Virus record (IMG/VR): IMGVR_UViG_3300032268_000470
Coordinates: 1 to 45,809 of that record
Direction: 5' to 3' (one strand)
Source: a virus
Length of the DNA: 45,809 nucleotides
Part shown: positions 8,195 to 41,594 of the stretch, one piece after another
How positions within the stretch are numbered: position 1 is the stretch's first letter
How the letters are laid out: each line of letters begins with the position of its first letter
Position numbers and translations under genes: made by a program
Notes under the pieces: model-generated
Told to the model about the DNA's origin: nothing
What the model saw: only the letters and a program-made list of their open reading frames with translations
Database searches by the model: none

Positions 8195-8899
8195 TTATTT
8201 AAATGAAGTTTTGTATGTGTCCGTTTCGGGAGCTCCTCCAGGTTGAAATGAACTTTTAATGTCTGCTACGTTAATGTCTTTGACCTCGTCAGCTGTTAAA
8301 ACATAATCATTTTTTCCTGTCTTTTCCATTTCTTCTGATTTATCATCAAAAAATTGTGAAAGTTTTTGATTGAATGGATATGAGTCGTAAGTTCTTAATT
8401 CTAATTTTTCTTGTGGAGTTTTTTCTCTGTATTTTTCAATCTTAGCTTCAAGTGAATTTAACTTATTCATGATGTTATCCATCTCTCCAAGTCTTGATTG
8501 TAAATCATTTAATTGTCCAAATAGATTGTTAAAATATTCTTCTTGTTTTGTTTCAATACTTTTTTGTGAGTCTACTAATTCTGTAATATCAAGTTCTTCA
8601 GATTCACCTTCACCTTTATCTGTTTTTTCTTCAGACTCTCCATCGTCGTTAAGTTTCTCAACGTCAGGGTCGTTTTCAACATCTATAGGTTCTCCACCTG
8701 CTGGTGCTGGCACTGGGGGTGGTACCGCTCCTGCTTCCGCTGGAGGTGGTGGAGCTCCCGCTCCTACGTCTCCTGGTAATGGTGCCAATGCCCCTAAATC
8801 TTGTTCAGGTGCAGCAACGTCAGCCGCTTGTTCCATGATATATTGATTGATACTTTTGTATCTATCAATCTCACTTAATATTTTTTTATCTAAACTCAT
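8195..8899 (-). CDS. 234-aa Ala/Pro-rich, coiled-coil protein, possibly virion-associated
   Basis: Function not recognised. Residues 1-25 are a short helix with IDRYKSINQYIMEQA; residues about 26-75 are Ala/Pro/Gly-rich low complexity with runs of proline; residues about 76-110 are strongly acidic (Glu/Asp/Ser); residues about 113-165 form a likely coiled coil (NDLQSRLGEMDNIMNKLN); the C-terminal third is mixed. No signal peptide or membrane segment. It is the last gene of the tail transcription unit, 5 nt after the 74-aa gene, and is followed by a terminator. A structural, scaffold or assembly role would fit the composition and place, but nothing in the sequence is diagnostic. Confidence 0.75.
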   Translation of the reverse strand: MSLDKKILSEIDRYKSINQYIMEQAADVAAPEQDLGALAPLPGDVGAGAPPPPAEAGAVPPPVPAPAGGEPIDVENDPDVEKLNDDGESEEKTDKGEGESEELDITELVDSQKSIETKQEEYFNNLFGQLNDLQSRLGEMDNIMNKLNSLEAKIEKYREKTPQEKLELRTYDSYPFNQKLSQFFDDKSEEMEKTGKNDYVLTADEVKDINVADIKSSFQPGGAPETDTYKTSFK

Positions 8900-25811: not shown

Positions 25812-25868
25812 TATCCTGTTTCAAAAATTTTTCTATTTACTTAAATTTTTAAAAATTGTATTCTTTAA

Positions 25869-26736: not shown

Positions 26737-29700
26737 TTAGATATTTTCAAACGAAGCTCCTGTTGGAGTGATAAAGAATTCGATATCAATGAATTCTAAC
26801 GCCTTCGTAGGTTTTAAGTAGATTTTACCTGTTAAAGTGTTTCTATCTAAGTCTTCAGGTGTTGAAGAAACTGTTACACGGAAATCGTATAAACCTCTGT
26901 CTCTTCTGATTGAATCTAAAATAGGGTTAACACTATCTAAGAATTGTTGTCTAACGATTTGGTCGTTTTGTTCAAACAATAATCTTACCGCTACCGCTGA
27001 AATTAATTTACGAGCTTGTAATAACAATCTTCTTACGTTCAATCTGTTCAATGCTGAATCAGCTACTTGTAATGTTTTGTTACCCCAAATTACTGTACCA
27101 ACATCTGCAAATGTTGCGATTGGGTTGATTCTACCTTGATAAAGAGTATCTCTATCTTCTTGAGTCAACTTAACTCTCGCCTTGATTGAATTTACAAGAC
27201 CTCTTGTGTAACCCGCTGATGCGAACCAAGGGAATGCAATATTATCAGTCAATGCTAAGTTTCTACAAACTTCACCTGTTGGAGGTAAGTAGATTTGTGT
27301 ATTATTAACAGTATCTCTTACCAAAATCCATGGGTAATAAGTTGCTGTATAGTTTGAGTCAATTCCTGTGTTATCTAAGTTATCAACCGCCTCTTGTGGA
27401 TAAATAATATCTAAAGAGTTAGTTCCATCTGGAGTATACATTAAGTAGTCAGGAGTTGTTGCGATATAAACAGAGTCAGCTCTTGCGTATTGAACCATAT
27501 CGATAGCTTCTTCAACAAGATTTGAGTTATTAACATAATCTATACTTGAAGTTGCAAATATGTTAATGTTTGTTGCTTCAGGATTAGCGAATGTTAATAT
27601 ACCAAGTAAGTAAGCGTAGTAATCGGTGTTAGCAAAATCTTGAGTATTGTTTGCGACAACAATTCTTTTAAATAAACCATCACCTGTTGCTGTTGGATAT
27701 CTTGTAGAAGACGAAGCTCCCGCTAAATAACCTGTTGCTCCTAATTGGAATCTATCTTGGTTAGTTCTAAATTCTCTATAAACATCCCATCCGTCAAATC
27801 CACCCGCGAAACATAATGTATATTTTCTTGAATAGATAAAGTAGTAAGGGTTTTCTTGAGTTTCAGGGTCGAATCTGAAATCTGCAACACCACACTCAAA
27901 TGCTGTTTGACCACTTGTTTGGAATGAATTTGCAATTGTAACTACAGTTGCTCCTGAGTCCATGTGGAATCCTTTACTTAAATAATTCCAAGGTTCACCT
28001 GCAATAGGTAATGCTGAAGTAACCCAGTTAGGTGGATTTTGTCTACCTTTAAATTGTAAAAACGCATCATCAATTCCAAATTGAGAAGAGAAACCTAAGT
28101 AAGCTCTTCTAACAATATCTCCCGCAGATTCAGTTGCGTTTGTTGTTGAACCAAATGGAGGGTTATAAATAACCTCACCTGGAAAATAGTATTTAGTTTT
28201 GAATTTAGGTACTGGTGAAATATTAGCAGTTGATTCATATTCTCTTTGAGTGTAACCGTAGAATCCACAAGGGATAGCATCTATCGGAGCCTCATCAGCT
28301 AATTCAATCATTACATACTTTGAAATTAAAGCAAATTCACCGTTAGATGAACCAATTTTCTTAGCAACAAAGTTGTTTGAAGCTGGGTCCATATTACAGT
28401 TTGTGAATTTCTCAATTACAACAGGGTTAGCATCTGTATCAAAGAAGTTTCTAACTAATACGTCAAATGTCATATTGTTAAATGATAAGTTTGCAATTGA
28501 AACTTTAACTTCTGTGTTAGCTGCGTCACCATCAGAAATTGAAATGAATTTAAATAATCTATAAACTTTATTACCTCTTAACTCAGATACTAAGAACGGA
28601 GTTTCAGGTGATTGATATTTTTCAACTTTATAAGCGATTGATTGTGTATTTTCGCTTCTTGCATCTTCTAACGCAACTAACTCAGGATTAATTCCTTTAA
28701 TATAACCTTGGTTATATGCGTAGTTTAAAGAACCAGGATATATTTCTTCAACATATAATGGAACTTCATTTCTTGATTTTCCAAAATTATCCGCTCCTAA
28801 CACTTTAGTTATATACTTAGGAGAAGCGGCAGATAATGAAGTTTCAAAAGAGAAAGTATCAAAATCTTTAGTAATACCTGAAAGTAAGAATCCTTCATAT
28901 GGTGAATTTGTAATACCTGAATATTGTCCTGTTGCAACTAAATTAACATCAGTTAATCCACTTACTTCGTATATAGGACCGTGTTGACCAAGGTCTGCGT
29001 TGTTTGAGTATAATGAAACACCTCTTGAACGTAAAGTTGCTACAACCATGTTGTTATATTCACTATATGCAGTTCCTGAGAAGTTGAATACATCACCTTC
29101 AATAGTACCTGTGTAAGTTGCTCCACCGTCAGTTGTTGTTAAAGACGATACAGTATAATAAAATGAATAACCTGCGTAGTTGTTATTAACATTAGCATCA
29201 TTGTCAAATGTTGCGTAATACCAAGGGTCGTTTAAATCTGCACTTAAATCGTTAGTATCAAGATTGTTTGAACTAGACCCAAATACATTTAACTGATTTG
29301 AATATTGACTAACTAATCCCCAATATGTTGTTGAAGGTACCGAACCATAAAATGCAACTGTTGTTGCAGAAAACGATGGGTTATCAATAATATTACCTAA
29401 GTTAGAATTAAAATCATCTTGATATGTAGAAGTACTACCATCAGATAATCTATATTGTACGTTTAGGTTATTTTGAACATCTGTAGGTAATCCACTTATC
29501 ATATCAATAGTACTACCTGAAGTAGCACCTGTGAATATTGCAGTAAATGCGGTTCCACCTGTTGGGGGGATTATACCAATAGTTAATGGGTCAACATTGG
29601 CAGTAACTCTAATACTCCAAGATGGTCCCGCGTCGTATCCCGACAACCCTAATACTCTTGTAACAAACAATTGGTTAGATTGTTGTAAGTATGACTTGGC

Positions 29701-29949
29701 AATGTATGCCGCTTCATATTTTGGGATTTGTGTGTTTACAAATTTTACTGGTTCCGTTCCGCCAAAATAAGCTTGGAACTCGTCGTAGTTAGTTATAAAA
29801 ACAGGTTCGAATGCAGGGCCCTTTATTGTTTCCCCTACTAAACCTAAGGTAGTAACACCGACACTCTGTGCTACGAACGAAAGGTCCGTTTCAGATGTGT
29901 ATACTCCAGGTGATACAAAAACTTTTTGATTTGCTTGTGCTGTTGCCAT
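26737..29949 (-). CDS. Contractile tail sheath protein (gp18-like)
   Basis: Forms the contractile sheath around the tube. 1070 residues, much longer than T4 gp18 (659). The N-terminus VFVSPGVYTSETDLSFVAQS and the nearby GLVGETIKGPAFEP are diagnostic of sheath proteins, as is the C-terminal region (about 880-1070) with NNTQIYLPPTGEVCRNLALTD (read in part), an arginine-rich helix stretch (LNVRRLLLQARKLISAVAVR) and the terminal beta segment ending LEFIDIEFFITPTG. The extra length lies in the middle (about residues 110-750), probably surface domains. A TATTTATC motif lies 35 nt upstream, and a GC-rich hairpin follows the stop. First gene of the tail unit, expected at high copy number. Confidence 0.93.
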   Translation of the reverse strand: MATAQANQKVFVSPGVYTSETDLSFVAQSVGVTTLGLVGETIKGPAFEPVFITNYDEFQAYFGGTEPVKFVNTQIPKYEAAYIAKSYLQQSNQLFVTRVLGLSGYDAGPSWSIRVTANVDPLTIGIIPPTGGTAFTAIFTGATSGSTIDMISGLPTDVQNNLNVQYRLSDGSTSTYQDDFNSNLGNIIDNPSFSATTVAFYGSVPSTTYWGLVSQYSNQLNVFGSSSNNLDTNDLSADLNDPWYYATFDNDANVNNNYAGYSFYYTVSSLTTTDGGATYTGTIEGDVFNFSGTAYSEYNNMVVATLRSRGVSLYSNNADLGQHGPIYEVSGLTDVNLVATGQYSGITNSPYEGFLLSGITKDFDTFSFETSLSAASPKYITKVLGADNFGKSRNEVPLYVEEIYPGSLNYAYNQGYIKGINPELVALEDARSENTQSIAYKVEKYQSPETPFLVSELRGNKVYRLFKFISISDGDAANTEVKVSIANLSFNNMTFDVLVRNFFDTDANPVVIEKFTNCNMDPASNNFVAKKIGSSNGEFALISKYVMIELADEAPIDAIPCGFYGYTQREYESTANISPVPKFKTKYYFPGEVIYNPPFGSTTNATESAGDIVRRAYLGFSSQFGIDDAFLQFKGRQNPPNWVTSALPIAGEPWNYLSKGFHMDSGATVVTIANSFQTSGQTAFECGVADFRFDPETQENPYYFIYSRKYTLCFAGGFDGWDVYREFRTNQDRFQLGATGYLAGASSSTRYPTATGDGLFKRIVVANNTQDFANTDYYAYLLGILTFANPEATNINIFATSSIDYVNNSNLVEEAIDMVQYARADSVYIATTPDYLMYTPDGTNSLDIIYPQEAVDNLDNTGIDSNYTATYYPWILVRDTVNNTQIYLPPTGEVCRNLALTDNIAFPWFASAGYTRGLVNSIKARVKLTQEDRDTLYQGRINPIATFADVGTVIWGNKTLQVADSALNRLNVRRLLLQARKLISAVAVRLLFEQNDQIVRQQFLDSVNPILDSIRRDRGLYDFRVTVSSTPEDLDRNTLTGKIYLKPTKALEFIDIEFFITPTGASFENI

Positions 29950-31841: not shown

Positions 31842-33593
31842 ATGGATGCTAGTTTAGAATCAAAGGCAATGTCTCTCTTGGAGGCTTATGAAGGAGGGAA
31901 TAACTACCTTATTGAGCTTAAAAGAAAGTCTCAAATAAATAGAAGATTTTACCCTACAAGGAGTCAGTCTGAGTATATTATTAATAACCACGACAAACAA
32001 CCAAAGGTTGCAAAGAAGTGGGTGATACTTGATGCATATTTCGCACAGAAACTTGCAGACGATAAACTTATGACCGAAATTCCCGAAAAGGTTTGGGTAG
32101 AAAAACTATTAGCAGAAAAAGAAAAGGCGTTCCATATTTGGGGTAAGATAACCGAATCAGAACAACTACATGATTTTTGGTTACCTAAAGCAGCAATTAT
32201 TAAAGACAACACAGTTAAAAACGTTGTAATAAACTATGAAAAATATTCTCATCGTCCTCCTCTTGAACATCAAAAAGAAGCTATCCAAAAATTGGTTGAA
32301 AATAAAAAATTCATACTTGCAGATGATATGGGTCTTGGAAAGACTACTTCTACTATTATAGCAGCATTAGAATCAGGTTCCAAGAAAGTATTAATTATTT
32401 GTCCAGCAACTTTAAAAATTAACTGGAAAAGAGAGATTGAAAATTATTCAGACAAACCAGTTTATATCGCTGAAGGTAAAAACTTTAGTACGGATGCTGA
32501 CTTTGTAATAATAAACTATGATATTATAAAAAATTTCCATGATACAAAAAAGAAAGGCGAATCGCAAATTCTTGATGCCAATTTTGATTTGGTGGTCGTT
32601 GATGAAGCACACTATATCAAAAACGCTACAGCCCAAAGAACAAAATTAATTAACGACCTCGTTAAGAAAGTAGACCGACTTTGGTTACTAACAGGAACAC
32701 CAATGACATCAAGACCAATTGATTATTTCAATTTGTTAAGTTTAATTGAATCTCCTGTGGCAAAAAACTGGATGGCTTACGCTATCAGATATTGTCAAGG
32801 ATACCAATTCAATGTTGGTGGAAGAAAAGTGTGGAATGTTATGGGAGCTTCAAATCTTGAAGAATTAAGAGACAGGACCACAGGACTTACATTAAGAAGA
32901 CTTAAAGAAAATGTTCTTGATTTACCAGATAAAATAATCACACCAGTATATCTTAGATTAAAATCTAAAATGTATGAAGAAATAATGGGTGAGTATTATG
33001 ATTGGTATGATAAAAATCCAGAAGAATCAAAATCACTTACAGTTCAATTTACCAAACTAACTAAGATACGACAAGTTATTGCCGACGAGAAGATTGCTCA
33101 AACAATAGAACTTGCGGAAAACATTGTTGAACAGGGAAAGAAAGTAATCATCTTTTGTAACTTTACTGACTCACTTAATAAGATATGTGAACACTTTGGT
33201 AAAACTGCGGTTAAGTTAGATGGGTCAATGTCAAAACCCGAAAGACAACATAGCGTTGACGGATTCCAAGAAAATGATAAAGTTAAAGTATTTGTTGGTA
33301 ATATTAAAGCGGCAGGTGTCGGACTTACTCTCACCGCTGGTGAGGCAGTTATTATGAACGACTTATCATTCTTACCATCAGACCACGCCCAAGCAGAAGA
33401 CCGAGCTTACAGATACGGTCAAAAAAACAATGTATTAGTTTACTACCCCATATTCGAAAACACAATCGAAGGAATTATCTACGACATATTAAATAATAAA
33501 AAACAAGTGATTGCCACAGTTATGGGGGACAATCAAAATACGGCCGATGCTGCCGAAGAAATTTTGAATAGAATTAATGAAATGCGTCGTTAA
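31842..33593 (+). CDS. SNF2-family DNA helicase/translocase
   Basis: ATP-driven double-strand DNA translocase. 583 residues. Motifs are in order: Q-region HRPPLEHQKEAIQ (137-149), motif I ADDMGLGKTTST (160-171), motif Ia ICPATLKINWKREI, motif II VVDEAHYIKN (DEAH 254-257), motif III LLTGTPMTSRP (283-292), motif V AAGVGLTLTAGEAVIMND and motif VI QAEDRAYRYGQ near residue 520. The order and wording are those of SNF2/SMARCAL1-like proteins rather than T4 UvsW. The N-terminal 130 residues form a separate domain of unknown kind. Likely role: fork remodelling, branch migration or removal of bound proteins. It starts the plus-strand block and is not preceded by a TATTTAT motif. Confidence 0.92.
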   Translation: MDASLESKAMSLLEAYEGGNNYLIELKRKSQINRRFYPTRSQSEYIINNHDKQPKVAKKWVILDAYFAQKLADDKLMTEIPEKVWVEKLLAEKEKAFHIWGKITESEQLHDFWLPKAAIIKDNTVKNVVINYEKYSHRPPLEHQKEAIQKLVENKKFILADDMGLGKTTSTIIAALESGSKKVLIICPATLKINWKREIENYSDKPVYIAEGKNFSTDADFVIINYDIIKNFHDTKKKGESQILDANFDLVVVDEAHYIKNATAQRTKLINDLVKKVDRLWLLTGTPMTSRPIDYFNLLSLIESPVAKNWMAYAIRYCQGYQFNVGGRKVWNVMGASNLEELRDRTTGLTLRRLKENVLDLPDKIITPVYLRLKSKMYEEIMGEYYDWYDKNPEESKSLTVQFTKLTKIRQVIADEKIAQTIELAENIVEQGKKVIIFCNFTDSLNKICEHFGKTAVKLDGSMSKPERQHSVDGFQENDKVKVFVGNIKAAGVGLTLTAGEAVIMNDLSFLPSDHAQAEDRAYRYGQKNNVLVYYPIFENTIEGIIYDILNNKKQVIATVMGDNQNTADAAEEILNRINEMRR

Positions 33594-33606
33594 AGAAAAT
33601 CTGGAT

Positions 33607-33614
33607 TATTTATA
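33607..33614 (+). promoter_or_regulatory. Candidate late promoter motif TATTTATA before the SOD-fusion gene
   Basis: Sense TATTTATA 21 nt upstream of the ATG, in the loop region of a weak hairpin (GGATTAT at 33603 / ATAATCC at 33623). Confidence 0.4.
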
Positions 33615-33635
33615 TGAAATGGATAATCCAAAATT

Positions 33636-35174
33636 ATGAAAAAAATAAAAGAGAAAATCCAACAACTCGAAACACAAATACTTGAAAACCACATCACAAA
33701 AGAAAAAGAGTTGTTGATTAACGAAATGAAAAAAATAGGAATAGAAAAATTACCCTATTCTTACTCAGCCCTGAAACAGTTTATTGACCCCGAGACAATG
33801 AACTTTCACTATAACAAACATTATAAGGGATATGTGGATAAATTGAATGACGCTTTAAATAAAAAGAAATACGGGGATTTAGAGTTAGAACAAATAATCA
33901 AAACAATAAGTCGTTTTGATAAAACAATAAGAAACAACGCAGGAGGAGCATTTAACCACGCATTGTTTTGGAATATGTTAACACCAACTCCAAAGAAATT
34001 AGAAGGAGAATTACTTAAAAAAATCACAAAACAATTCGGAAGTTTCACTGCGTTCAAGAAACAATTTGATACTGTTGCCAAAGATAGATTCGGTTCAGGG
34101 TGGGTATGGTTAGTCCTTACTGCCAAGAACACATTAAAGATTATGTCGACTCCAAATCAAGACAATCCTTTAATGAATGTGATTGAAGGTGGTGGGTTTC
34201 CAATATTAGGGTTAGACTTATGGGAACACGCTTACTACTTGAAGTATAGAAACAAGCGAGACGAATATATTGTTAACTTTTGGAAAGTTGTAAACTGGGA
34301 ATTTGTTTCCAAGTTATATGAAATGAAAACGGAAACTAAATTAGTAGAATCCGTTAAGTTAGAAAAGTTGATAACAGAATCCAAAGAGGCAAAATTTTGT
34401 GACGCCAAGGAAGTTCAATTCTACAGAGAACTTATTAATAATTCAAACATTAAGAGAATATACCAAGACGGAGTAACTAATGCTTTAAAAGAAGTGTTTA
34501 GTCAATTTTGGGTTGATAGTACAAATAAAGAAATGTCAGGGTTTTATGGATTAGAGTCTAAAGAAGGAAGGTCTATTTTAAATAACCTAAACACAAACTT
34601 CAACACTTTTTGTTTATTAACCAAAGCAATTAATACTCAAATTGAAAAAATAGGTAGACCTGAAAAGAAATTTGATTTTTCTAAAAAAGAAAATAGAACC
34701 ATTAAAGAGATTAACAGATTAATGAATGCGTTGTATCATTTCAAAACAGAAATATTCACAAAAAACAACGAGGAGTTTATTAACATAATTAAAGTATTAA
34801 AAAAATTGTGGGATAGAGGACAAAAATCTGAAGATGATGTTTTAATTAAAATTGAAAAATATTTTGGGGATTCCGCAAAACTTGAAAAGACTGGAGGACA
34901 TGGTCAAAAAACCGACGCACTCCTTGGTGTTGATTTAACAATTACTTTAAATGAAACAAGATATACCGCTCAGGTTAAACCATTTTCAAGAATAATAAAC
35001 GAAGATGGAAAAATTACTGTAAAAGATACAGGAAATGTTAAACCGTACGATGTTGATTGGTTGATATTTATTAATACAAAATCAAACGAGATTTTGATTT
35101 TTGAAAACAACCCGATTAAAAATCATAATCAATATGTGTTTAATGAGAGTTCATTAATTCATAAAATAGAATAG
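33636..35174 (+). CDS. Fe/Mn superoxide dismutase fused to a PD-(D/E)XK-like C-terminal domain
   Basis: 512 residues. Residues 1-35 form a charged helix. Residues about 38-232 are a complete iron/manganese superoxide dismutase: LPYSYSAL, ligand H58 with H62 (MNFHYNKHY), H108 in NNAGGAFNHALFW, and D194/H198 in LDLWEHAYY, followed by YRNKRDEYIVNFW and VNWEFV. The Gly-Gly before NH and Q175 in NQDNPLM point to the manganese (or cambialistic) type. Residues 240-400 are helical and unrecognised. Residues about 400-500 resemble a PD-(D/E)XK nuclease: E407, D427/D433 in TDALLGVDLTI, and Q446-V-K448 in YTAQVKPF, then a DWLIFIN strand. A usual SOD has about 200 residues, so the fusion is unusual. The frame is continuous. 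It precedes the gp13-like neck gene by 17 nt. Confidence 0.85.
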   Translation: MKKIKEKIQQLETQILENHITKEKELLINEMKKIGIEKLPYSYSALKQFIDPETMNFHYNKHYKGYVDKLNDALNKKKYGDLELEQIIKTISRFDKTIRNNAGGAFNHALFWNMLTPTPKKLEGELLKKITKQFGSFTAFKKQFDTVAKDRFGSGWVWLVLTAKNTLKIMSTPNQDNPLMNVIEGGGFPILGLDLWEHAYYLKYRNKRDEYIVNFWKVVNWEFVSKLYEMKTETKLVESVKLEKLITESKEAKFCDAKEVQFYRELINNSNIKRIYQDGVTNALKEVFSQFWVDSTNKEMSGFYGLESKEGRSILNNLNTNFNTFCLLTKAINTQIEKIGRPEKKFDFSKKENRTIKEINRLMNALYHFKTEIFTKNNEEFINIIKVLKKLWDRGQKSEDDVLIKIEKYFGDSAKLEKTGGHGQKTDALLGVDLTITLNETRYTAQVKPFSRIINEDGKITVKDTGNVKPYDVDWLIFINTKSNEILIFENNPIKNHNQYVFNESSLIHKIE

Positions 35175-35191: not shown

Positions 35192-36316
35192 ATGGCAGTA
35201 TTACCAGAACCAGAAAGAAGTAGGATATATACGAGAATCAAACATCAGTTAGGTGCACCACTAAGAAGTGTTGAACTTGAAGATGAAATGATGGATTCGT
35301 TAATGGAGTTAGCAATTGGGGATTACGAAGAGTATATCCTACAATGGTTAATTGATTCTCAATGGGTTAACTTAGTTAACTTGAATATGAATGAAAGGTC
35401 TGTTGCAAGAGCGTTAGTTACAAGAACTATGGATTTTGAACAACAGTTTAGTTACGCATATTCTAAAATTGTGGGTCTTCAAACTGAAGGTCCTTGGGTT
35501 TTAAAGAAAGATTATTTTGTTCTTGAAAAGAACGTTCAAACATATGAAATTCCTGCAGGTAGAGAAGTTAACGAGCTATTATGGTTTAGTGACCAACCTT
35601 GGACTGCGTTTGGAATTGGTGGAATGGCTGGTGGTTTTGGTGGTATCGGATTAGGTGCCGACCAAGCGGGATTTGCTCAAATGGGTAATCAAGGTTCTTA
35701 TTTTATGATGTCAGGTTTTGATTATTTAATCAGAATGCAAGAATCAAATATTCTTAATAGAATATTAGGAGGTTCAATGACATATAGAATAACAGGATTA
35801 CCTGACGGTAAAAAGTTAATTCACTTAATGAATACACCTGGTGGTAAATTTAACTGGTCAAGTTATAGTCAATACGTGGGTAAAGCCGTATGGTATTGGT
35901 ACTATGATGTTGAACCTGATAGTAGAGCTGATTGTCTCAAAAACAATCCTGATATTATTAAACTACCTACAGATGTTCCAATCGAATCACTTAGTTGGGA
36001 GGACTTAAACGTACCTGGTCAACAATGGGTAAGAAGATGGTTTACAGCCTATTGCAAAGAAACTTTGGCAAGAGTCAGAGGTAAATATAGTGGTAACTTA
36101 AAGACACCTGATTCTGAAATTATAATGGATTATCAGAGTTTACTTACTGAGGCTAAAGACGAAAAGACCAAATTAATAGACGAACTAACAGGAGCTGAAG
36201 GATGGTTGACAAGAATGAGACCCGATAAAGTAATGGAACGAGAAGCATTAATTGCGGAAAACTTGAACAAGCAAATGAAGTTCAGAGCAATGCCTCGTCA
36301 AATATATGTAATTTAA
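35192..36316 (+). CDS. Neck protein (gp13-like)
   Basis: 374 residues (T4 gp13 has 309). The opening RIYTRIKHQLGAPLRSVELEDEMMDSLMELA (read as parts around residues 12-42) is the hallmark of T4-type neck proteins: a helix, a LGAP turn, then a helical acidic stretch. Residues 137-170 are a Gly-rich loop (GGMAGGFGGIGLGAD) that is probably a surface insertion. The C-terminal half is helical with many charged residues. Expected to join the DNA-filled head to the tail. It sits on the plus strand, while tail genes are on the minus strand, with the 111-aa gene next. Confidence 0.72.
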   Translation: MAVLPEPERSRIYTRIKHQLGAPLRSVELEDEMMDSLMELAIGDYEEYILQWLIDSQWVNLVNLNMNERSVARALVTRTMDFEQQFSYAYSKIVGLQTEGPWVLKKDYFVLEKNVQTYEIPAGREVNELLWFSDQPWTAFGIGGMAGGFGGIGLGADQAGFAQMGNQGSYFMMSGFDYLIRMQESNILNRILGGSMTYRITGLPDGKKLIHLMNTPGGKFNWSSYSQYVGKAVWYWYYDVEPDSRADCLKNNPDIIKLPTDVPIESLSWEDLNVPGQQWVRRWFTAYCKETLARVRGKYSGNLKTPDSEIIMDYQSLLTEAKDEKTKLIDELTGAEGWLTRMRPDKVMEREALIAENLNKQMKFRAMPRQIYVI

Positions 36317-39920: not shown

Positions 39921-41594
39921 TTATGATTCTTTACGCAACTCTCTGTTATAATGTTCGAATCTATCGTGTTCTGTTGGTGTCATAAGTAATAAACCAGGGT
40001 ATAGTTCATCTTTTTTAACCAATTGGTACATATGACTCATCCATGTTTGTTCAAACGGGTGTGCCCATGTTGTATCTAAGAACATTTTTTTATTTCCTGG
40101 TCTACTAACAATCTGAGGCCAATTACAATAATAAACGTCACCAACCGCATATGGAACACCCTTGTGAGATAACACAGCATTGAATTCTGTTTTTGGAGCA
40201 TTAGGGTCAAGTCCCATTTCTGGAAGTCTTGGTTTACCTGGCCAAAACTCATCTCTTACATGTTGAGGAACATTGTACCAAGCCCACTGAGTTCCATTGT
40301 CCCCATAAAACTCAGAATAATTCATCTTTAAAAAATCAAAATTTTCTTTCTTAATAATTTCTAAAGACTTTGTATATAAATTGGAAACATATCGATTGAA
40401 TCCATTCCTACAAGATGTCCCTTCATTTGGAAAGAAGAACATATCATCCTCAAAGAATAAATAATAATCTAAATCGGTTTTATCAAAATGTTCGGCAATC
40501 CATTGTCTACCACCACATATACCTAAATTATCTTTCTTAATATGTTCAAATCCAAATTCTTCACAAATTGTTAAGTACTCTTCGGTAGTTGATAAGTCAC
40601 TTGAATTATCTAACAAAAACTTTTTAGTTTTTAATATGTAGTCCTTATCATATGCCAACATAGAATCAATAAGAGTTCTAAATTGTTTTGGACTATTGAA
40701 TGTAATAACATACAATCCAACTTTGTTTGGGTCCAAAGTATTACTAACTTTTTCTGTATTTTCACTTTTAACTTTGAGCTCATCGTTTTTTAAATTTTCA
40801 AAAAATGTTCCGATTAAACCATTTGATTCAATTTCAAAATAGTTAATCATATCCGAATGTTTATAAGTCATAATACTGAAAATTGATTCTTCAGTACCCA
40901 TGTATCCATCTTCTAATGTGGATTTAAGTAACCCATAATAAATTCCATTGATGTCTCCTATTGTATGTTTTGGTCCACCAAAAAATCCTCCTCTAGAAAC
41001 TTTGGTGACTTTGGCTCCAGCAAGAGCATTTAATTTAGGATAATTGAATCCGTGTATTTCAGTCTCAGCACCATATGGAAAACTAACAAATGAAAATTTT
41101 GAAATATATTTTGATAAATTATTTAATACTTTATCATGAGTAAAGTATCCTGGATGAACTGTATTTGTTAAACCACCATCAATCCAAAACATATATTCTG
41201 AATCAAATTGGTCCATTATTTTGGCGTCATGTAATAAAAAAACTTTAGACATAACCAATGGATTGTAGTTATCTAATCTTGCTTGAGTAGATTCTTTTAA
41301 CCAACCAACTTGATTATACCATTCTGAATTTGTTCTTATTTTTTGAATCATTGGAAAAAACTCTGAATTAGTAAACCAACTTAATGGCCTTACAATAAAC
41401 TGAGTGGTTTTAGAACTTCTTCTTTCAAAAACAAATTCTTTTAATTCTTCGTCTCCAAAGATTATTAAGTTTTCTTCAACCTCTAAAAGTTTTTCAAACT
41501 TATCTAAATAATGTTGATAAGGTCTTGACCATCCTTCGGTCAATTCACCTCTTCCAATATCCCAAATACCTGTTACTAATGTTATATTACTCAT
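39921..41594 (-). CDS. Two-domain glycosyltransferase (HtrL/YibB-like plus GT-A)
   Basis: 557 residues. The N-terminal ~285 resemble the HtrL/YibB (WlaTC) family: LVTGIWDIGRG at the start, WYNQVGWLKESTQAR, NPLVMSKVFLLHDA and FWIDGGL. The C-terminal part from about residue 300 is a GT-A-like transferase: VGLYVITFNSPKQF, DNSSDLSTT, DNLGICGGRQWIAEHF and DYYLFFEDDMFFF (EDD metal/nucleotide-sugar site near residue 385). Both halves are complete, so it may add two sugars or act as a fused pair. It overlaps the upstream 293-aa gene by 8 nt. Target (lipopolysaccharide, virion protein or DNA) unknown; the nearby repeat protein is a candidate. Confidence 0.78.
   Translation of the reverse strand: MSNITLVTGIWDIGRGELTEGWSRPYQHYLDKFEKLLEVEENLIIFGDEELKEFVFERRSSKTTQFIVRPLSWFTNSEFFPMIQKIRTNSEWYNQVGWLKESTQARLDNYNPLVMSKVFLLHDAKIMDQFDSEYMFWIDGGLTNTVHPGYFTHDKVLNNLSKYISKFSFVSFPYGAETEIHGFNYPKLNALAGAKVTKVSRGGFFGGPKHTIGDINGIYYGLLKSTLEDGYMGTEESIFSIMTYKHSDMINYFEIESNGLIGTFFENLKNDELKVKSENTEKVSNTLDPNKVGLYVITFNSPKQFRTLIDSMLAYDKDYILKTKKFLLDNSSDLSTTEEYLTICEEFGFEHIKKDNLGICGGRQWIAEHFDKTDLDYYLFFEDDMFFFPNEGTSCRNGFNRYVSNLYTKSLEIIKKENFDFLKMNYSEFYGDNGTQWAWYNVPQHVRDEFWPGKPRLPEMGLDPNAPKTEFNAVLSHKGVPYAVGDVYYCNWPQIVSRPGNKKMFLDTTWAHPFEQTWMSHMYQLVKKDELYPGLLLMTPTEHDRFEHYNRELRKES

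Follow-up and report, generated by a model that had tools for sequence, protein, structure and literature searches.

A superoxide dismutase fused to a predicted PD-(D/E)XK-type nuclease module in a lineage of large T4-type phages

What does a superoxide dismutase (SOD) do at the front of a 512-residue phage protein whose other half matches, by sequence, nothing of known function, and do the two halves belong together at all? Phage SODs are classed as auxiliary metabolic genes, which aid the host in coping with reactive oxygen species (ROS). Freshwater phages commonly carry ROS-defence genes, SODs included, and 'phage-mediated ROS defence' has been proposed (PMC6802176). The gene considered here lies in a stretch of viral DNA of 45,809 nucleotides (IMG/VR record IMGVR_UViG_3300032268_000470), hereafter the window, and its parts and neighbours are listed in Table 1. 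A preliminary description, made from the letters of the window alone, had read the gene as an Mn-type SOD followed by an unrecognised helical region and a nuclease-like segment. Our analysis leaves us highly confident that the protein is a conserved fusion of an intact SOD with a nuclease module of PD-(D/E)XK fold, and suggests that it may be made late, as a two-enzyme precursor associated with the head.

Table 1. The SOD-nuclease gene, its parts, its upstream signals and its neighbours, in window coordinates
Feature	Coordinates	Strand	Basis
SOD-nuclease fusion gene, 512 aa	33636..35174	+	ATG to TAG; fused in 296/296 fetched loci
N-terminal helix, residues 1-33; [IL]15-x-E17 (E 61/64), L27-[IL]28-x-E30 (64/64)	33636..33734	+	conservation
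Fe/Mn superoxide dismutase domain, residues 34-232; H58, H108, D194, H198; Mn-type Gln Q175	33735..34331	+	Pfam PF00081/PF02777, PDB phmmer, conservation, dN/dS
Inter-domain linker, residues 233-252; L236-x-E238-S239, [IL]246-x-E248-S249	34332..34391	+	conservation; first residues pLDDT < 50
Helical region, residues 253-395, part of nuclease module	34392..34820	+	model helical; collinear with 290-aa LR756501.1 protein
PD-(D/E)XK nuclease-like domain, residues 396-512; E399, D427, D433, Q446, K448 invariant	34821..35171	+	model, Foldseek, conservation, dN/dS
Inverted repeat GGATTAT(13 nt)ATAATCC, 5' of SOD-nuclease start codon, contains TATTTAT	33603..33629	+	covariation in orthologous leaders
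TATTTAT, late-promoter-like element	33607..33613	+	enriched within 50 nt upstream of window genes
SNF2-type helicase/translocase, upstream neighbour	31842..33593	+	PF00176 1.9e-28, PF00271 3.5e-18; syntenic in relatives
Neck / head-tail adaptor protein, downstream neighbour	35192..36316	+	phrog_211 head-tail adaptor Ad2 1.3e-9; syntenic

Scans of IMG/VR gave 296 loci with the C-terminal half, as overlapping fetches from about 130 contigs, and 64 distinct proteins were aligned. Every locus fetched has the SOD upstream of this half and in frame with it, with no stop between, and the relatives are 57-100% identical from end to end, with hardly any indels. As far as their contigs extend, the 80 loci inspected share the order p346-p176-SNF2-SODnuc-neck-p111-polB; together with the domain matches, this synteny bears out the SNF2 and neck genes that the preliminary description had named as neighbours. 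An assembly join or chimera, which that description had named as a refuting outcome, is ruled out as a matter of negligible probability, since the same in-frame fusion recurs in many independent assemblies and in orthologues 57% to 100% identical, and nothing was found in its favour. Judged by dN/dS medians, all parts of the protein are under purifying selection (SOD 0.03, helical part 0.067, nuclease 0.108), the SOD being the most conserved. Phage SODs are already known; we found neither a SOD-nuclease fusion nor a virion SOD described for phages in a literature search with subscription journals mostly outside its reach.

The first half is a full SOD domain, as had been proposed. A Pfam search with the protein returned PF00081 at 78 bits (gathering cut-off 27; E 6.5e-22) and PF02777 at 136 bits (gathering cut-off 20.9; E 5.3e-40), and the best phmmer match in the PDB is the MnSOD 6gsc (E 6e-59, over residues 38-230), the top-ranking solved structures being MnSODs (E about 1e-58). 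The metal ligands H58, H108, D194 and H198 are invariant in all 64 aligned relatives, and so are the gateway pair H62 and Y66, the second-shell Q175 and the dimer-bridging E197. Q175, within STPNQDNP, stands invariant at the Gln position of MnSODs, with Gly at the Gln position of FeSODs. By its residues the pattern is Mn-type, although metal use is not certain from sequence. The nearest cellular SODs are about 46-57% identical and come mostly from Bacteroidota. The whole domain, the ligands, the H/Y gateway and the second-shell Gln and Glu are alike in bacterial Fe/Mn SODs (6gsc; Chitinophagales and other Bacteroidota), whereas the phage SOD is one part of a 512-aa protein, preceded there by a helix and followed by the nuclease module. 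Other phages, including several jumbo phages, have SODs that stand alone (Vibrio 2.275.O; Pseudomonas PA5oct, Callisto and Paride; freshwater MW462191); these are likewise phage-borne, but they have about 180-200 aa, are unfused and 28-39% identical, and lie among other neighbours.

The C-terminal region of 277 aa (residues 236-512) gave no match of known function in Pfam, the PDB or PHROGs, whether searched as a single sequence or as a profile, and no relatives in the cellular genomes searched. Its sole sequence-family match is phrog_5018, of unknown function, found by 26 of 31 members (best 7.6e-5); in a superfamily as divergent as PD-(D/E)XK such a match is a supporting and not a defining test. 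The AlphaFold2 model of the region, built from 31 aligned members (pLDDT 84.5, pTM 0.73), has seven helices followed by an alpha-beta core. Against the PDB, Foldseek placed I-Ssp6803I (2ost, E 3.9e-3) and Hjc (1gef, E 3.3e-2) with probability 1.0, and the SPARDA nuclease subunit and NhoI also stand at or near the top of the list; these matches to solved structures are modest, with a best E of 3.9e-3 and TM-scores of about 0.4-0.55 on the target. According to the model, the region is of PD-(D/E)XK type, with its motif residues in the order expected for that fold: E399 lies in a long helix, D427/D433 (G-x-D) precede a strand, and Q446-x-K448 is on the strand after it. All five residues are invariant in 64 of 64 members, though the nuclease domain diverges to 35% identity. 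The predicted core and the residue order (helix E, strand D, strand QxK) are shared with I-Ssp6803I, the Hjc resolvase, the SPARDA subunit and NhoI; the phage domain differs from these endonucleases in having no sequence-level match and an extra helical part of about 140 residues.

Structure prediction of the C-terminal half, which the preliminary description had proposed as a check, thus agrees with the nuclease spacing that it had read by eye. Its D427/D433 and Q446-x-K448 stand, but its E407 does not: this position is Glu in only 53 of 64 members, which rules it out as a catalytic residue, and the invariant acid of the first helix is E399. Active-site roles for H422 and K425 were likewise set aside as not required, these residues being substituted in a few members. 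The full-length AlphaFold model is poor in the SOD part (mean pLDDT 62) because the family alignment is too uniform, and it was not used for domain arrangement or the dimer.

When the C-terminal model was compared with viral structure models, it matched A0A6J5L953 (E 4.5e-15, 282 columns), a 501-aa protein that BFVD/UniProt lists as 'superoxide dismutase', from an uncultured Caudovirales phage; it is 29% identical in the aligned part and annotated as SOD alone. Since the nuclease model matches an entry named SOD, A0A6J5L953 most probably represents a diverged form of this fusion, which would then already be in UniProt under the name of SOD alone. A 1113-aa marine phage protein (A0A8D9CCA0) was also matched.

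The nuclease half can also be found by itself. A stand-alone protein of 290 aa in the 735-kb megaphage LR756501.1 (692651-693520; PMC7162821 describes a genome of this size) aligns collinearly to residues 253-512, with an identity of about 25-28%, and retains the active-site columns. PF02777 matches nothing anywhere in that record, so that no SOD accompanies it; its neighbours differ (PhoH-like and unknown proteins), and no close relatives of it were found in IMG/VR. The preliminary description had treated the helical region as a separate part, a division that falls because the helical part and the nuclease occur together in this stand-alone protein. On our reading, the SOD was fused onto a separate phage nuclease module consisting of the helical part and the PD-(D/E)XK core.

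Divergent fused members were found by a scan in which the megaphage protein was placed first in the alignment. Between contig L442 and the window, the SOD and SNF2 are each 87% identical, the neck protein 85% and polB 84%, whereas the helical part is 36% and the nuclease 35% identical. Over residues 216-239, which end in ...MKTETKL-x-ES, 22 of 24 positions are identical, and the identity then collapses immediately. It is most likely, from this alignment, that another allele has taken the place of the nuclease half, with the join in the linker. An exchange of the nuclease beside a constant SOD speaks against tight catalytic coupling of the halves and argues that they work independently, with the target or partner of the nuclease changing. 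The two alleles compared are L442:3110-4645 and window 33636-35174, which differ in the C-terminal half alone with unchanged flanks; contig L513 carries an allele of the L442 type (74%).

The preliminary description had also pointed to a candidate late promoter, and this is borne out as an enriched motif: TATTTAT occurs within 50 nt upstream on the coding strand of 9 of the 29 window genes, against 1.0 expected. It precedes the genes for tail tube, tail sheath, neck and SOD-nuclease and not those for DNA polymerase, helicase or ribonucleotide reductase, and we infer it to be a late-type promoter element. The consensus late promoter of T4, TATAAATA, is not enriched on the coding strand (0/29 window genes). 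Around the TATTTAT of the SOD-nuclease gene a 7-bp stem is kept in 98.4% of cells among 18 distinct orthologous leaders, with compensatory changes at two pairs (11 cells), a level reached in 0 of 500 shuffles; this inverted repeat may act as a site in the DNA or as a hairpin in the RNA. Examples of TATTTAT in the window lie at 25812 (-), 29993 (-), 33607 (+), 35181 (+) and 39916 (-). Elsewhere in the window, the tail sheath protein (26737-29949, -; 1070 aa) matches sheath proteins over residues 853-1068 only and thus has a very long N-terminal part beyond that match, and a 557-aa protein (39921-41594, -) has an HtrL/YibB-type domain (PF09612, 7.7e-21) with a weak match to phage glucosyltransferases.

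The phages are of T4 type. Related contigs reach 326 kb, and, on these contigs and outside the 45.8-kb window, the T4 Gp23 capsid protein was found in 11 of 12 tested and a gp21-type prohead protease (PF03420) in 8 of 8. The group is one of widespread, very large freshwater phages, probably of Bacteroidota, a host that the nearest cellular SODs fit without proving it. At the position of the T4 gp23 cleavage site, the capsid protein of these phages has the putative site (H/F)LINE|ASSTSD. Head proteases of T4, phiKZ and SPN3US cut C-terminal to Glu in short motifs, and that of SPN3US favours Ser at P1' (PMC9026906, PMC5694885, PMC10052503).

Motifs resembling the form of this capsid site flank the SOD, namely L27-[IL]-x-E30, L236-x-E238-S and [IL]246-x-E248. 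The one just before the SOD, L27-[IL]28-x-E30, is kept in 64 of 64 members; in the one just after it, L236 and E238 are kept in all 64 and position 239 is Ser in 61 and Thr in 3. E248 is present in 61 of 64 and lost in three, and E17 of [IL]15-x-E17 is also lost in 3/64. Across all of them P3 is L or I only and P1 is E, with a variable residue in the middle. Conserved [LI]xE occurs outside the folded domains five times in 66 residues as against once in 446 (Fisher P 1.7e-4, with segments chosen post hoc). The motif is short and makes up 1.2% of residues genome-wide, so that single occurrences mean little; what is striking is the invariance of L-x-E-S in a linker modelled at low confidence and probably flexible. 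These conserved prohead-protease-like motifs, a point absent from the preliminary description, are in line with the possible entry into the virion that it had raised. Other observations weigh against packaging and cleavage: the N-terminus of the SOD-nuclease has no clear 'LTESDL' tag of the kind seen in other proteins of these phages, that of the LR756501.1 homologue has no prohead-protease-like motif, and some 45-55 kb separate the SOD-nuclease gene from the cluster of capsid and protease genes.

As to the tag itself, about 20 otherwise unrelated proteins in each of the 317- and 326-kb relatives (G001 and G004; L382-L398, L403-L419) share this N-terminal type, of which MKKIIRLTESDLxRLVKxVIxE and MKYIITESRLExxxxKFLD are examples (e.g. 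L368:2569-2967). In these two genomes [LI]xES is over-represented about 3-fold within the N-terminal 30 residues (P 2e-6 and 3e-6). To judge by its sequence the tag looks like a capsid-targeting or propeptide tag. A second PD-(D/E)XK-like protein of the same phage, 423 aa long (L368:1249-2520; G001:C1:176194-177465; nuclease profile E 1.5e-7), has an N-terminal LIES motif and adjoins two LTESDL-tagged proteins. In the window, a Pro/Ala-rich acidic protein of 234 aa (8195-8899, -) starts MSLDKKILSEIDRYKSINQYIMEQ, carries [LI]-x-E motifs, ending in Glu, within residues 1-24 and is a possible head core protein.

The explanation that we favour is that the SOD-nuclease precursor would be made late in infection and taken up during assembly into the head or the head core, and that a gp21-type protease would cut it at the L-x-E|S linker sites into SOD and nuclease. 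The freed halves would act independently: the nuclease, with a putative active site of E399-D433-Q446xK448 and the also invariant D427, may act on host DNA after injection or on branched or phage DNA at packaging, and the SOD may remove superoxide near DNA or virion proteins. Enzyme activities, late expression, packaging, cleavage and substrates are inferred here, and the roles floated in the preliminary description, protection from the host oxidative burst or redox-linked DNA processing, are likewise conjectural. The explanation as a whole, in which a T4-type jumbo phage lineage makes two enzymes late as one precursor that is packaged in the head and split by a protease, is put forward tentatively, its chances being somewhat short of even, and the mechanism of head-packaging and protease cutting, taken by itself, is the more doubtful. 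It would be comparable to the T4 internal head proteins and gp21 substrates (IPI-III, Alt, gp23), in that T4-type capsid and protease occur in the same phages and Glu-terminated motifs lie at domain boundaries; none of the T4 head proteins, however, is a SOD or a PD-(D/E)XK nuclease, and packaging and cleavage of the SOD-nuclease are putative. That the head-packaged polyprotein is further ejected with the genome, so that the new host would receive an antioxidant enzyme together with an exchangeable effector that cuts DNA, we consider unlikely; a SOD delivered in this way would be, to our knowledge, the first from a phage particle.

Fe/Mn SODs dimerise through a conserved Glu-His bridge, and the protein may instead remain uncut as a bifunctional cytoplasmic enzyme, in which the SOD dimer joins two nuclease domains that process branched or host DNA late. 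The SOD would then be a dimerisation scaffold, perhaps also an Mn source or redox sensor. E197 and H198 of the bridge are indeed invariant (64/64), Hjc and I-Ssp6803I, to which the nuclease comes closest in fold, are multimeric, and a search of four 317-326 kb contigs for Endonuclease VII (PF02945), run without a positive control, gave no match. We nevertheless hold such an enzyme to be rather improbable, as the nuclease half is exchanged or present independently of the SOD, the conservation of the SOD active site (dN/dS 0.03) exceeds the needs of a mere scaffold, and the conserved L-x-E-S in a flexible linker is left unexplained.

Another possibility, also with a low probability in our view, is that the SOD is what matters, as an auxiliary ROS-defence gene protecting the infected host, phage DNA or proteins (for example inside grazing protists), and that the C-terminal module has an unrelated role in DNA repair, recombination or packaging. 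The frequency of such genes, SODs included, in freshwater phages (PMC6802176) is in line with this, as are the stand-alone SODs of other jumbo phages (Vibrio 2.275.O, Pseudomonas PA5oct/Callisto) and of freshwater MW462191 and the rank of the SOD as the most conserved part of the protein. In this lineage, however, the SOD never occurs without the nuclease (296/296 fetched loci fused), the nuclease half is itself under purifying selection with invariant catalytic residues, and a late-type promoter motif would be odd for a gene protecting the host throughout infection.

Inactive PD-(D/E)XK proteins exist, and the Gln that replaces the third acidic residue is a variant motif, so the C-terminal fold might be a non-cleaving DNA-binding domain that places the SOD on DNA against radicals. 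This is very improbable, however, given that E399, D427, D433, Q446 and K448 stay invariant in 64/64 despite divergence to 35% identity and that Q-x-K motifs are known in active Mrr-like members.

In summary, a lineage of large T4-type phages has kept a SOD in permanent fusion with a nuclease module. Selection on the fusion is strong and its expression signal is of late type, while a diverged allele can take the place of the nuclease half. A gene listed as 'superoxide dismutase' in an aquatic virome can have a nuclease concealed in it, and counting such genes as plain ROS-defence genes is incomplete. If the head-packaging proposed here is true, the SOD-nuclease would offer a testable case of a virion-carried antioxidant enzyme and of a polyprotein split by a protease.
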